Shown: one piece after another, positions 32,804 to 62,154 of the stretch
Position numbering within the stretch: the stretch's first letter is position 1
Layout: the number at the start of each line of letters is the position of its first letter
Origin: Halapricum desulfuricans
Lineage (GTDB): Archaea; Halobacteriota; Halobacteria; Halobacteriales; Haloarculaceae
DNA length: 64,000 bases
Reading direction: 5' to 3'
Assembly: GCF_017094525.1 (NCBI RefSeq)
Contig: NZ_CP064788.1
Span: forward strand, 2,341,030 to 2,405,029
Program-made: the position numbers and the translations under genes
The notes under the pieces: generated by a model
The model's input: only the letters and a program-made list of their open reading frames with translations
Told to the model about the DNA's origin: nothing
Databases searched by the model: none

Positions 32804-33628
32804 TCACCGCTCGTGCACCCAGAAGGAGTCCTCGACGGTGATCTCTTTTTTGAATATCGGGACGTCTTCCTTGAGCCGGTCGATCCCGTCCGAGACGGCC
32901 TCGAACGCCTCCGTGCGGTGGCCCGCGAGCACGACGACGAAGACGATGTCCTCGCCCGCTTCGATCGTTCCGGTCCGGTGGTGGAGTTCGACCGACAGCA
33001 CGCCGTCCCGTGATTCGAGCGCACGCTCGATATCCGCGAGTCGCTGCTCGGCGACGCCCTCGTACTTCTCGAAGGTCAGGTGTTCGGTTCGATCGTCGCC
33101 GGGTGCGTCTTTCGCTCGGACCTGACCGGTGAACGTCGCGATCGCTCCGGCGCGTTCGGCCGCGGGGTCGTCTTTGACGCGCCGGACGAGCGATCCGAGC
33201 GTCTCGAACGGCTCCGTCGCGTCCAGCGCCTCGATGACCTCGTCGACATCGATCGCGTCGGCGTCCGGTGCAGTCGCCAGCGCCTCGCCGGCGTGATCTC
33301 GGTCACCGACGACGACCTGCGGGATCGGGACCCGACTGAACCCCTCGACGAGCGCGTAGTCGAATTCCGGCGCGAGGTCTTCGAGCGTCCCCTGAAGCGT
33401 CCGATCCGATCCCGTGGCGAACCACTCGCCGTCATCGATGATCCCGTACGTCCGGTCGGCCCCGGCCGCGCGGTGGCGGGCCGTATCCTTGCCCTCGACA
33501 TCGATATCGAACTCGTGGAGGTGTTTGACCGTCGCCACGCGCCCGCGCTCGGCCAGACGCTCTGCCAGTTCCTCGAGCAGCGTCGTCTTCCCGGTATCGG
33601 AGTAGCCGACGACACCCAGTACGTGCAT
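32804..33628 (-). CDS. MobB-MoaE fusion, molybdopterin cofactor biosynthesis
   Basis: The 274-residue protein joins two functions. Residues 1-130 are MobB-like, with a P-loop VVGYSDTGKTTLLEELAERL and DYALVEGFSRVPIPQVVVGD; MobB assists guanine-nucleotide attachment to the cofactor. Residues about 150-274 are MoaE, the large subunit of molybdopterin synthase, with GAIATFTGQVRAKDA, LTFEKYEGVAEQRL, HHRTGTIEAGEDIVFVVVLA and PIFKKEITVEDSFWVHE. It sits in the same window as moaA and three molybdoenzyme operons, which need the cofactor. Confidence 0.92.
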   Translation of the reverse strand: MHVLGVVGYSDTGKTTLLEELAERLAERGRVATVKHLHEFDIDVEGKDTARHRAAGADRTYGIIDDGEWFATGSDRTLQGTLEDLAPEFDYALVEGFSRVPIPQVVVGDRDHAGEALATAPDADAIDVDEVIEALDATEPFETLGSLVRRVKDDPAAERAGAIATFTGQVRAKDAPGDDRTEHLTFEKYEGVAEQRLADIERALESRDGVLSVELHHRTGTIEAGEDIVFVVVLAGHRTEAFEAVSDGIDRLKEDVPIFKKEITVEDSFWVHER

Positions 33629-33729
33629 GTCCTACCAGAGGGGAGCCGGGGGTTTGACAGTAGCGGTCGTCCCGAAAGGGCGTATACCACAGGTCAAACG
33701 TGGGAGTCGCCACACCGGGCTGGCGAATC

Positions 33730-33808
33730 ATACTGCCGGCTGTAAGTTCGTAAAGATATTCGCCACCCCGGATGGCGAATTACGTTAGTTTGTTACAGCC
33801 GGCAGTAT
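33730..33808. repeat. Palindromic element, type Ia (79 bp), 3' side of the heliorhodopsin gene
   Basis: Arms ATACTGCCGGCTGTAA (33730-33745) and TTACAGCCGGCAGTAT (33793-33808) are perfect inverted repeats. The interior runs GTTCGTAAAGATAT, CGCCACCCCGGATGGCG, then an AAACTAACGTAATT-like box (reversed). The right end supplies part of the heliorhodopsin TGA stop. Just left, at 33708-33729, TCGCCACACCGGGCTGGCGA resembles the core of another copy without arms. Confidence 0.9.
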
Positions 33809-34617
33809 CAGATCGGGGAGTTCAGCGTGCCGAAATAGACCTGCCACGCGAGCACGGACTTGGCGACGAGGCTCAACAGCACGTACGTCTTCTCGCCGAA
33901 GAGGTAGTTCTTCCACCGGGAGACCTCGAGGTACTGCAGGGCCATATTCAGCGCGAAGAGGTTGAAGAAGACGAAAATCGAGACGTAGATGTAGATGACG
34001 AACTCGGGGAACTCGCCTCCGCTGGCCGTCACTGTCCCGATAAAGGTGATCCCGATGACGATCCAGGGCACGATGCCGGCGAGGACGCCGACCCAGTACG
34101 GCGTCCAGTCGGTCTCGGCGGTCGACTCGTTGCGCTGTTCCATCAGGAGTCCGGCGAGGTTCATCACCGCGACGAGTCCGAACAGCGCGACGAGCGTTCC
34201 GAGGTCCCAGACGCCGGCCAGCATGCCGATGACGACGATCATCAGCGAGGCGCTGACGGCGTATTCGTACCAGCGGTAAGGGTTCATCCCCCGATCGAGG
34301 TACGCGATATATCGCTCGTACAGCACCGTGGCAATCGCGGTGTGTGCCAGCGCGGAGATGAACAGAAAGCCCGCCACGAGCAGGGGCAGGTTCGCGTCGA
34401 TAAACGACACCGTCGTCGGAAAGATCGTCTCGGTCTCGGCGTTGAAGCCGTATCTCGTTCGCGTGATCGGCCACAGCACCTCGTCGGCCAGAACGACCAT
34501 CGCCACCCCCTGCAGAAAGTGCAGCACTGCCATGACGCTGTTCCACAGGCGGAGTCGAGTGTCTCGTGCGGAGGTCGCGTCGGCGGTTCCGGTAGCTGTT
34601 GTGCTCGCTGTAGACAT
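33808..34617 (-). CDS. Heliorhodopsin
   Basis: The 269-residue seven-helix protein has the heliorhodopsin signature in helix 7, SLVAKSVLAWQVYFGTL, with K253 as the retinal Schiff-base lysine. E118 in YRWYEYAVSASLMIVVIGML is the expected counterion. LRLWNSVMAVLHFLQGVAMV in helix 1 and the helix-3 histidine (SALAHTAIATVLYERY) also fit. Heliorhodopsins are light-responsive, with inverted topology relative to type 1 rhodopsins, and mostly do not pump ions; their role is poorly known. The gene stands alone and is bracketed by palindromic elements, two type Ia copies in the same orientation 1.0 kb apart plus a type Ib copy upstream. Confidence 0.92.
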   Translation of the reverse strand: MSTASTTATGTADATSARDTRLRLWNSVMAVLHFLQGVAMVVLADEVLWPITRTRYGFNAETETIFPTTVSFIDANLPLLVAGFLFISALAHTAIATVLYERYIAYLDRGMNPYRWYEYAVSASLMIVVIGMLAGVWDLGTLVALFGLVAVMNLAGLLMEQRNESTAETDWTPYWVGVLAGIVPWIVIGITFIGTVTASGGEFPEFVIYIYVSIFVFFNLFALNMALQYLEVSRWKNYLFGEKTYVLLSLVAKSVLAWQVYFGTLNSPI

Positions 34618-34668
34618 GGGTAACCTATCACGTCACGTGGCAATACCTCTTTGGGGACCGCGACAGTC

Positions 34669-34748
34669 ATACTGGTGGCTATACCATTTCGAACTGATCT
34701 GGCACGCCGTCGTGCCAGATATCGTTACGAACGTATAGCCACCAGTAT
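34669..34748. repeat. Palindromic element, type Ib (80 bp), upstream of heliorhodopsin
   Basis: Arms ATACTGGTGGCTATA (34669-34683) and TATAGCCACCAGTAT (34734-34748) are exact inverted repeats around a central CTGGCACGCCGTCGTGCCAG. The orientation box (GTTCGTAACGATAT) is on the right, so it runs opposite to the copy at 8926. It is separated by one base from the next element. Confidence 0.9.
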
Positions 34749-34749
34749 C

Positions 34750-34829
34750 ATACTGCCGGCTGTAAGTTCGTAAAGATATTCGCCCCCGGGGGGTGGCGAA
34801 TTCCTTCAGTTTGTTACAGCCGGCAGTAT
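34750..34829. repeat. Palindromic element, type Ia (80 bp), between heliorhodopsin and pyrH
   Basis: Arms ATACTGCCGGCTGTAA (34750-34765) and TTACAGCCGGCAGTAT (34814-34829) are perfect inverted repeats. The interior GTTCGTAAAGATAT is followed by a CGCCCCCGGGGGGTGGCG core and an AAACTGAAGGAATT box (reversed). It has the same orientation as the copy at 33730 and ends about 105 bp before pyrH. A TATA-like GCTTAAGAGC near 34902 probably serves pyrH. Confidence 0.9.
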
Positions 34830-34934
34830 CAGGTCGTCGCCCGGAACTCCCGTGCTATCGCATCGCGCGGGAAGCGGACACGTCCGAAGACTTCTTGACA
34901 ATGCTTAAGAGCGCATCGCGGTTACGCCGATTCG

Positions 34935-35633
34935 ATGAAAACAGTCGTCTCTATCGGCGGGAGCGTGCTCGTACCGGATCTGGACGCCGGGCGAGTCGAG
35001 GCGTACGCCGACGTCATCGGATCGCTGGCGGCAGCGGGCCACGACCTCGGCGTCGTCGTCGGCGGCGGCCCGACCGCACGGGAGTACATCGGCGCGGCCC
35101 GGTCACTGGGTGCCAACGAGGGTGAGCTCGACCAGCTCGGGATCGACACGACGCGGCTGAACGCCCGTCTCCTGCTGGCGGCGCTGGACGAGGACCTGGC
35201 ATCGCCGACAGTGCCGACCGACTACGAGGAGGCGGCCGAGTCGCTCCATCGGGACCGCGTTGTCGTGATGGGCGGGGTCGTCCCGGCGCAGACGACCGAC
35301 GCCGTCTCGGCGGCGCTGGCCGAATACGTCGACGCCGACCGGCTCGTGTTCGCGACGTCGGTCCCCGGCGTCTTCGACGCCGACCCCAACGAGGATCCCG
35401 ACGCCGAGCGCTACGAGGAGATGACGGCGAGCGAACTCGTCAAACTGGTCGCCCGCGGCGAGTCGCTCGGCTCGGCCGGGTCGAACGCCCCGATCGACCT
35501 GCTGGCCGCGAAAGTTCTGGATCGATCGGGGATCGAAGCGATCGTCCTGGACGGGACCGACCCCCGGGCCGTCGAACGGGCCGTGCTCGAAGACGACTAC
35601 GAGGGGACTCGCATCGGGCCGAACCATGACTGA
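34935..35633 (+). CDS. pyrH: UMP kinase
   Basis: PyrH phosphorylates UMP to UDP. The 232-residue amino-acid-kinase-fold protein begins MKTVVSIGGSVLVPDLDAGR and has GVVVGGGPTAREYIGAARS, GELDQLGIDTTRLNARLLL, VVVMGGVVPAQTTDAVSAAL and DRLVFATSVPGVFDADP, matching archaeal-type UMP kinases. The gene overlaps lysS by 8 bp (ATGACTGA). A TATA-like GCTTAAGAGC lies about 25-35 bp upstream of the ATG, which suggests a leaderless transcript. Confidence 0.93.
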   Translation: MKTVVSIGGSVLVPDLDAGRVEAYADVIGSLAAAGHDLGVVVGGGPTAREYIGAARSLGANEGELDQLGIDTTRLNARLLLAALDEDLASPTVPTDYEEAAESLHRDRVVVMGGVVPAQTTDAVSAALAEYVDADRLVFATSVPGVFDADPNEDPDAERYEEMTASELVKLVARGESLGSAGSNAPIDLLAAKVLDRSGIEAIVLDGTDPRAVERAVLEDDYEGTRIGPNHD

Positions 35634-46390: not shown

Positions 46391-46719
46391 GTTTTGAAAG
46401 AGAAGAGGGCCACGAAGAGGGTTTAGACGTGGAACCACGTGCTGAGAGGAGCCGAAACTGCCATACGCTCCAGATGCCAAGACAGGGGGCTTCGTGTCAC
46501 AGCCTCGTGACCGCGTCGGGGGGCGAACGGGCGCTGTCTCGGCCCTCCGTTTCTCGTTTCGAATGTGTCGGCTCTGGTACATCGCCAAACAGCGTCGGCT
46601 TCGACCGTCAGAACTAGTGAGCCCGACGACGTCGATGTCGAAGACGTCGAGGGAAGCGACAAAGAGTAACGTAGCGGCAGCCGAGTTGCAGTTTTTTCGC
46701 GGTCGGATGCAGCGTTTCG
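46391..46719. other. Intergenic region without a recognised gene
   Basis: The 329-bp stretch between the regulator and the RecJ-like gene, both on the minus strand, holds only short uncertain frames. One plus-strand frame ends SEPDDVDVEDVEGSDKE at 46669, an acidic tail that looks protein-like but has no supportable start. It may be a gene remnant. Confidence 0.4.
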
Positions 46720-48165
46720 CTACGCGAGTTGCTCGCCGACGATCCTGTCGACGGCGTCCAGAAACGCGTCCTCGCGTCCGTCCGGAATCGTCGCCCCGGC
46801 CGCGACGTCGTGACCACCGCCGTCACCGTCGACGGCGCGTGACGCCTCGCGCATGACGGCCGACAGATCCAGCCCGTGGCCGACGAGCACGCCCGTCCCG
46901 CGCGCCGAGACTTTCAGTTCGTCGTCGTTCTTGCGGGCGAAGGCGACGATCGGTTTCGATCGCGAGACGCCGTCGTTGCCCAGCGCCATCCCGGCGACGA
47001 TGCCGACGATCGTCTCCCGAATGCGGTCGCCAGCGTGGAAATACTGGACGTGCTCGCGCTGCTTGACGCCCTCTCTGGTGACCCAGTCGATGCCTTCCGA
47101 GAGGTTTCGACGGTGGTTCTCGAGGAGTCGGCGGGCGCGTTCCAGCGGCTCACCGCGCTCGCCCAAACAGACCGCGAGTCCGACATCCGCTCGCTCGTAG
47201 CGCGCTGTGGCGTTCAAAAGCGTCGAGAACTCGCTGGCGTCCCGGAGTTCGGTCCCTTCGGGTTCGTTCGGGAACGTGTAGGTCGTGGCCACCAGTCGAT
47301 CGATCTTCTCCGCGGGGACGCCGCGGGTGACGGCCCGCTGGACGAGCGCGCTCGCGAGCGTCTGTCGCTCCTCGTCGGTGAGGTCGATCCAGCGTCGCCA
47401 CTCGCCGTCCGCCCGCAGGTCGAGATCGAGGTCCTCCAGAAACGCGATCGCCCCCGCCTCGTCGTTGGAGATTCCGGGCAGGTGGACATCGCTGGCGTAC
47501 TCGAGCAGTTTCGGCAGAGGCCGGGTCTGCTTGCCGTACAGCGAGAGGTCCCGCGTTTCGGTGACGACGCCGGCCTCGATCCCGTCCGTCACGATCGCCT
47601 CGTTCGCGCCGACCAGTTCGCCGCCGGTCGCCTGCATATCCCCCACCGCGCCGACGACGGCCAGCGCCGCGAGATCGCGGTTCCGGTCGCCGCCCAGCGC
47701 ACGCGCGAGGACGTAACTCGCGCCCGCACCCGACAGCTCCGACGCGCCGTCGATCCCCACCAGGAGGGGATTGAGATGCCACGCGAAGTCGCCGTAGCCG
47801 TCGGTCGCCTCGAACCCGGGCGCACAGTCGTCCGCGTCGGCAGGCTGGTGGTGATCGGCGATCACGGCCTCGAAGTCGCCGTCAGCGACGTGCCGGCTGA
47901 TCACGTCCAGTTGCCCGCTCCCGAAGTCCGTGAACAGCACCGTCTCGTAGCCCGTCGCCGCGATCGCGGCGATCCGCTCGGCGTCGAGTTGCTTCTCGAA
48001 GACGACCTCGTGGTCCAGTCCGGCCCGATCGAGCGCCCTCGAGGCGATGGCGGCGCTCGTCAGCCCGTCGGCGTCGATATGTGACGCCAGCAAGACCCGC
48101 TCTGCGTCCAGCAATCGGTCGGCACAGGCCGTCGCGCGCTCGTCGAGTTCCGGAACCGGTCCCAT
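46720..48165 (-). CDS. RecJ-like DHH-family single-strand nuclease
   Basis: The 481-residue protein has the DHH phosphoesterase motifs: LLASHIDADGLTSAAIASRA, TVLFTDFGSGQLDVISRH and AVIADHHQPADADDC, followed by HLNPLLVGIDGASELSGAGA. A C-terminal DHHA1 domain has KVSARGTGVLVGHGLDLSAV and GDGGGHDVAAGATIP. Archaeal RecJ/GAN proteins of this kind degrade single-stranded nucleic acid and associate with the replication GINS complex or repair. No partner gene (rps15, GINS) lies next to it here, so the precise role is unassigned. Confidence 0.88.
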   Translation of the reverse strand: MGPVPELDERATACADRLLDAERVLLASHIDADGLTSAAIASRALDRAGLDHEVVFEKQLDAERIAAIAATGYETVLFTDFGSGQLDVISRHVADGDFEAVIADHHQPADADDCAPGFEATDGYGDFAWHLNPLLVGIDGASELSGAGASYVLARALGGDRNRDLAALAVVGAVGDMQATGGELVGANEAIVTDGIEAGVVTETRDLSLYGKQTRPLPKLLEYASDVHLPGISNDEAGAIAFLEDLDLDLRADGEWRRWIDLTDEERQTLASALVQRAVTRGVPAEKIDRLVATTYTFPNEPEGTELRDASEFSTLLNATARYERADVGLAVCLGERGEPLERARRLLENHRRNLSEGIDWVTREGVKQREHVQYFHAGDRIRETIVGIVAGMALGNDGVSRSKPIVAFARKNDDELKVSARGTGVLVGHGLDLSAVMREASRAVDGDGGGHDVAAGATIPDGREDAFLDAVDRIVGEQLA

Positions 48166-62073: not shown

Positions 62074-62154
62074 ATACGGTCGGTTGTAAGTCTGTTCCAG
62101 ATCGATCGCATCCGTTATGCGATCGTACCGGTAAATCGTTACAACCGACCGTAT
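62074..62154. repeat. Palindromic element, type II (81 bp, 16-bp arms)
   Basis: ATACGGTCGGTTGTAA (62074-62089) and TTACAACCGACCGTAT (62139-62154) are perfect inverted repeats. The reverse-complemented interior (CGATTTACCGGTACGATCGC) aligns with that of the element at 2421-2502. The arms differ from that copy at several positions, with matching changes on both sides. It ends 15 bp from the GH4 stop codon. Confidence 0.88.

Follow-up and report, generated by a model that had tools for sequence, protein, structure and literature searches.

We propose that the heliorhodopsin gene described here is a lone gene of unstable position, which, as seems on balance probable, relocated independently of the palindromic elements that now surround it, these having been added later or having served as a recombination substrate. 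The gene is located in a stretch of 64,000 nucleotides (the window), which corresponds to positions 2341030-2405029 of a 2.89-Mb single-contig Halapricum genome, G000, and which was compared with five further Halapricum genomes, G001 to G005, of which G005 is the closest relative. In all five relatives, mobB adjoins pyrH without a gene or an element between them. As this interval is empty in every one of them, the gene appears to have arrived in it recently, and the comparison supports an insertion at mobB-pyrH in this lineage. A preliminary description of the locus had considered either a clean removal of the gene or its arrival as a cassette; it was correct with regard to an arrival, and the position of the gene turns out to be unstable.

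The heliorhodopsin gene and its surroundings

The gene (window positions 33808-34617, minus strand) has an intact reading frame and codes for a protein of 269 amino acids, of which residues 22-265 cover the full Pfam model PF18761 (E-value 8e-94, 313.9 bits versus a cut-off of 26.7). The best structural match is PDB entry 6is6 (E-value 4e-77). In the structural alignments, K253 falls on the lysine within the conserved motif lslvaks and E118 on a position that is occupied by an aspartate in PDB entry 7clj, which bears out the initial identification of a clear heliorhodopsin with K253 and the counterion E118. With its full-length match and the conserved positions of the retinal lysine and the counterion glutamate, the protein resembles the heliorhodopsin family as represented by PF18761 and the structures 6is6 and 6su3. 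All six Halapricum genomes possess one copy of the gene, and S249xxxK253 (an SxxxK motif) and E118 are invariant among the six proteins. Each of these genomes also codes for two proteins of the retinal-forming enzyme family PF15461, a further point of likeness to the heliorhodopsin family, and for three type-1 rhodopsins, so that a supply of retinal for heliorhodopsin is plausible from the gene content. Some bacterial heliorhodopsins have reported operon partners (PMC9529153, PMC11109279), whereas the gene described here stands alone, without such a partner. A heliorhodopsin reading frame in Halorubrum kocurii (L065, 397-1206) contains one in-frame stop codon and might be a pseudogene or reflect a sequencing error.

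The left neighbour of the gene is a mobB-moaE fusion gene (32804-33628, minus strand; PF03205 and PF02391) and the right neighbour codes for a pyrH-like kinase of the amino acid kinase family (34935-35633, plus strand; PF00696), which is 77-100% identical within the genus. Three palindromic elements, all on the plus strand, are present in this interval. On the left, a type Ia element (33730-33808, core 33731-33807) with five differences from the Ia consensus is flanked by TCA at 33728-33730 and 33808-33810. On the right, the order is TCA-Ib-TCA-Ia-TCA, with a type Ib element (34669-34748, core 34670-34747; TCA at 34667-34669 and 34748-34750) followed by a second type Ia element (34750-34829, core 34751-34828; TCA at 34748-34750 and 34829-34831), which has three differences from the consensus. 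The two Ia copies are direct repeats, 89-98% identical and about 1,020 bp apart, and the arrangement proposed initially, a gene between two Ia elements of the same orientation at a distance of about 1.0 kb together with one Ib element, is confirmed by these coordinates. The inner TCA of the left Ia element is the TGA stop codon of heliorhodopsin (33808-33810) read on the other strand; the element is therefore located directly after the reading frame and leaves it undamaged. At the outer side of the left Ia element (33703-33730, plus strand), we also found the decayed core of an older element, about 25 nt of which are 88-92% identical to the central parts of intact elements at other sites of G000 and G001. 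This remnant may be a trace of an earlier exchange within element sequence.

Position of the gene in Halapricum and other haloarchaea

In G005, the heliorhodopsin gene is located about 12 kb away, flanked by genes for a regulator and a DHH-family protein, in inverted orientation relative to its neighbours and without elements; the same site is empty in G000 (46464-46725, by comparison with G005). G000 and G005 are collinear over window coordinates 9016-69895, and heliorhodopsin is the sole displaced gene in this range. The gene loci of the two genomes have a single block in common (33808-34660, minus strand; 92.5% by blastn to G005 400790-401642), which comprises the gene with some 43 bp upstream of it, and nothing outside it is shared. 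A co-travel of flanking DNA was rejected, as the outer flanks in G000 do not match the flanks of the gene in G005. Furthermore, no gene remnants were seen at the alternative site of either genome, where the gaps align only at their edges. In G004, neither the G005 site nor mobB-pyrH is occupied, and the direction of the last move, into mobB-pyrH, is what we infer. The heliorhodopsins of G000 and G005 are sisters in the protein tree (support 99/97), and the two genes share 93% DNA identity, with 92-97% identity in the surrounding genome. Due to this sister relationship and an identity equal to that of the genome, the last step is best read as the move of one gene within the G000/G005 lineage and not as a distant import. 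Further to the left, from -4573 to 9016, G000 and G005 differ in length (approximately 13.6 kb versus 5.8 kb) and three palindromic elements are present; this stretch looks like a variable region.

The instability is not confined to the 12-kb shift that separates G000 from G005, as the location of heliorhodopsin differs in each of the six Halapricum genomes. The five most similar genomes have the gene at five distinct sites, which implies at least four relocations or re-acquisitions. As an internal control, for which one gene pair was used, no more than about 2 kb were found to separate a type-1 rhodopsin gene from a PF15461 gene in each of the six genomes. We also called and clustered the neighbouring genes of 29 heliorhodopsin loci, nearly all of them haloarchaeal. 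Among the other genera, an extended context was common only to two Haloarchaeobius genomes, and some neighbours recurred, for example between Halostella, a Haloferacaceae bin and Halosimplex, between Salinibaculum and Haloarchaeobius and, in this case several of them, between Halobacterium and Halorubellus. The neighbours and origins of heliorhodopsins have been treated previously (PMC8612252, PMC11109279, PMC9601134); the passages found of these papers do not cover the positions of the haloarchaeal genes.

The protein tree is in conflict with the taxonomy at several points. The gene of Halosegnis rubeus (Natronomonadaceae) is sister to that of Halorubrum kocurii (Haloferacaceae), at 93% DNA identity, the heliorhodopsin of G002 clusters with that of Halorhabdus salina (100/99), and a single clade was rejected both for the six Halapricum genes (p 2.6e-85) and for the five closest ones (p 0.024). 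From this conflict, a transfer of heliorhodopsin between haloarchaeal families is evident. Carriage by viruses or plasmids was considered and rejected: no relative was found in viral contigs, and the only plasmid matches were two distant bacterial ones, from Chloroflexota and Lactococcus. The 10.5-kb plasmid NZ_CP141705.1 of Lactococcus petauri carries an annotated heliorhodopsin gene with 41% identity.

Palindromes are present within 1 kb of heliorhodopsin at two of the 29 loci and on both sides of the gene only in G000; among the relatives, G001 has a one-sided Ia element and G002, G003, G004 and G005 have none at the gene locus. As the gene positions differ almost everywhere, elements found at two loci cannot be the general cause of its mobility, and the palindromes are probably bystanders or occasional helpers of gene movement. 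For the same reason, the initial suggestion that a repeat-flanked cassette accounts for the patchy distribution of heliorhodopsin finds no support as a general account. An excision by recombination between the direct repeats, which had also been suggested, should leave one element at mobB-pyrH, and none of the five relatives shows one. Two observations had been named as arguments against a cassette, namely that no strain lacks the gene and that relatives carry it at the same position without flanking elements; the first is the case among the six Halapricum genomes, but the second is not, as no relative has the gene at this position.

The palindromic elements

The elements are approximately 80 bp long, non-coding and have perfect arms of 16 bp, and folding of the elements that flank the gene gave z-scores of -7.6 to -9.9. 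Twelve matches to the terminal inverted repeats (TIRs) were found in the window versus 0.1 expected. Across G000, 40 Ia copies were detected by BLAST, and strict TIR matches amounted to 64 on the forward and 60 on the reverse strand versus one in the reversed control. On the basis of strict end-sequence counts on the forward strand (64 in G000, 27 each in G001 and G005, 13 in G004, two in G002 and one in G003), the element family is most numerous in G000. In nearly all of 30 Ia copies listed, identical bases adjoin ATACTG...CAGTAT on its left and right, and we therefore read the core as TACTG...CAGTA, accompanied by a 3-bp TNA duplication. In this reading of the aligned copies, which corrects the ends of the elements, the TCA (TNA) on either flank represents the target duplication; among the Ia copies, TCA is the most frequent variant (about 19 of 30, counted by hand). 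A clean empty site is available for a related palindromic element (62074-62154, plus strand), with TCA present once in G005 and as TCA-element-TCA in G000. As far as sequence comparison reaches, the palindromes are shown to be short, non-autonomous, MITE-like transposons, which insert with a 3-bp TNA duplication and are prone to stacking.

No partner transposon with the same ends was found in a genome-wide search of G000 for long TIR pairs, and we keep the label MITE-like because this search was confined to G000. The only long TIR pair (G000 2844057-2845547) was rejected as an autonomous Ia partner, as it is an Ia copy into which an unrelated insertion sequence of about 1.4 kb (L055 560-2050) has inserted; this insertion sequence codes for a 437-amino-acid transposase and has the 10-bp direct repeat CTTTACGAAC. 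In Haloquadratum walsbyi, MITEs and small mobile repeats have been described, some of them without a working transposase in the genome (PMC3119063). The elements described here are similar in that they are short and non-coding, possess TIRs, are present in many copies, stack and have no partner transposase in the genome. However, the small mobile repeats of H. walsbyi make no duplication, whereas a 3-bp TNA duplication is seen here, and the sequence of our elements has no link to a described transposon.

Several further observations were made on these repeats. A further subtype of the same build (ATAGTGACCGTTGTAA...) is located at 2421-2502 of the window. A second and more abundant type of 80-bp palindrome (L056:8360-10230, query 1792-1871) has more than 40 copies each in G000 and G005 among the matches listed and many copies also in G001, G002 and G004. 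One Ia copy is located within what appears to be a single methyltransferase gene, resulting in two frames (L056, G000 2740986-2741690), and in G005 part of this methyltransferase gene is found 2.4 kb from its neighbour.

Possible routes of the gene to mobB-pyrH

In the reading that we favour, heliorhodopsin would pass between haloarchaeal species by a general mobility that is independent of the elements, and the intergenic site at which it lands would be a new one in nearly every species. In this lineage, the gene would have come to mobB-pyrH together with the 43-50 bp or so that precede it. It would presumably have been cut or copied by transfer combined with recombination of the illegitimate or micro-homologous type, the old copy being lost. 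The elements would then have inserted next to the gene at its new site or would, at most, have supplied short homology for recombination. A weakness of this reading is that the old and the new junction both fail to align with an empty site at base level. Against it also speaks that the sole displaced gene in 60 kb is also bracketed by elements, that three of the eight elements in the window surround it and that the outermost ends with their TCA repeats resemble a composite transposon in form.

The last three points favour a different explanation, namely that composite transposition moved the 1.1-kb unit. In this case, the Ia pair would form its ends, a TNA-specific transposase encoded at another locus would act in trans and the outermost TCA repeats would be the target duplication. 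The outermost ends are indeed TACTGCCGGCTGTAA inverted repeats with TCA on each side (33728-33730 and 34829-34831), elements of this kind transpose with a TCA duplication (62074-62154), and, as in known composite transposons, two like elements bracket a passenger gene and equal short repeats are found at the outer ends. However, the bracketing elements are 80-bp non-coding repeats, and it is the form of the sequence that makes up the likeness. Each of the three elements is individually flanked by TCA, which is in any case the commonest Ia duplication, and the joined outer flanks align with no mobB-pyrH interval of a relative. The sequences of the two Ia copies are not identical, and both rank with the most diverged copies; no transposase with such ends was found in G000. 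In addition, two adjacent Ia copies of the same orientation 0.5-1.5 kb apart are to be expected somewhere in the genome with P ~0.30; its bracketing of the one displaced gene is a more modest coincidence (~0.002-0.02, estimated by hand from the eight window elements). Ia pairs as general carriers of genes were also rejected, as the other interval between Ia copies of the same orientation that was examined (2741277-2743236) is not a displaced unit; G005 has it in two pieces, both of them in the same neighbourhood. An Ia-heliorhodopsin-Ib-Ia unit was not found at a second locus in the Halapricum genomes, each of which has one gene copy, and the other loci are without paired elements. We therefore consider it doubtful that the unit moved in this way, and equally doubtful that heliorhodopsin, as one case of a habitually relocating single gene in haloarchaea, travels as the passenger of two 80-bp non-autonomous palindromes that together form a composite transposon.

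Alternatively, ectopic homologous recombination between element copies at two loci could have moved the gene, with the elements as substrate and without transposition. The older element core in the left outer flank and the Ia element near the gene in G001 would fit such an exchange, but the copies are just 80 bp long and a source locus with two elements is unlikely given the element-free loci of the four other relatives, which makes this route improbable. Still less probable is a loss of the gene in this lineage followed by its return from another species, by transfer into mobB-pyrH: transfer from family to family is seen elsewhere in the haloarchaeal tree, but the G000 and G005 genes are sisters at genome-average identity, and any donor would need to be roughly as closely related as G005. 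An assembly error that misplaced the gene between multi-copy 80-bp repeats is very improbable, as repeats of 80-160 bp are normally resolvable, the assembly consists of a single contig and G005 is otherwise collinear over the greater part of the window.

Taken together, a lone gene that moves independently of the elements remains the reading we prefer, and it bears on how heliorhodopsins are interpreted. Their function is often guessed from neighbouring genes, and since these neighbours vary by species in haloarchaea, guilt by association could mislead; heliorhodopsin here probably acts alone or with a partner encoded elsewhere. Its patchy distribution is better read as the frequent movement and transfer of a single gene, and the G000/G005 pair, which represents a recent move at about 93% identity, could with a few more strains serve to work out the mechanism of this movement.
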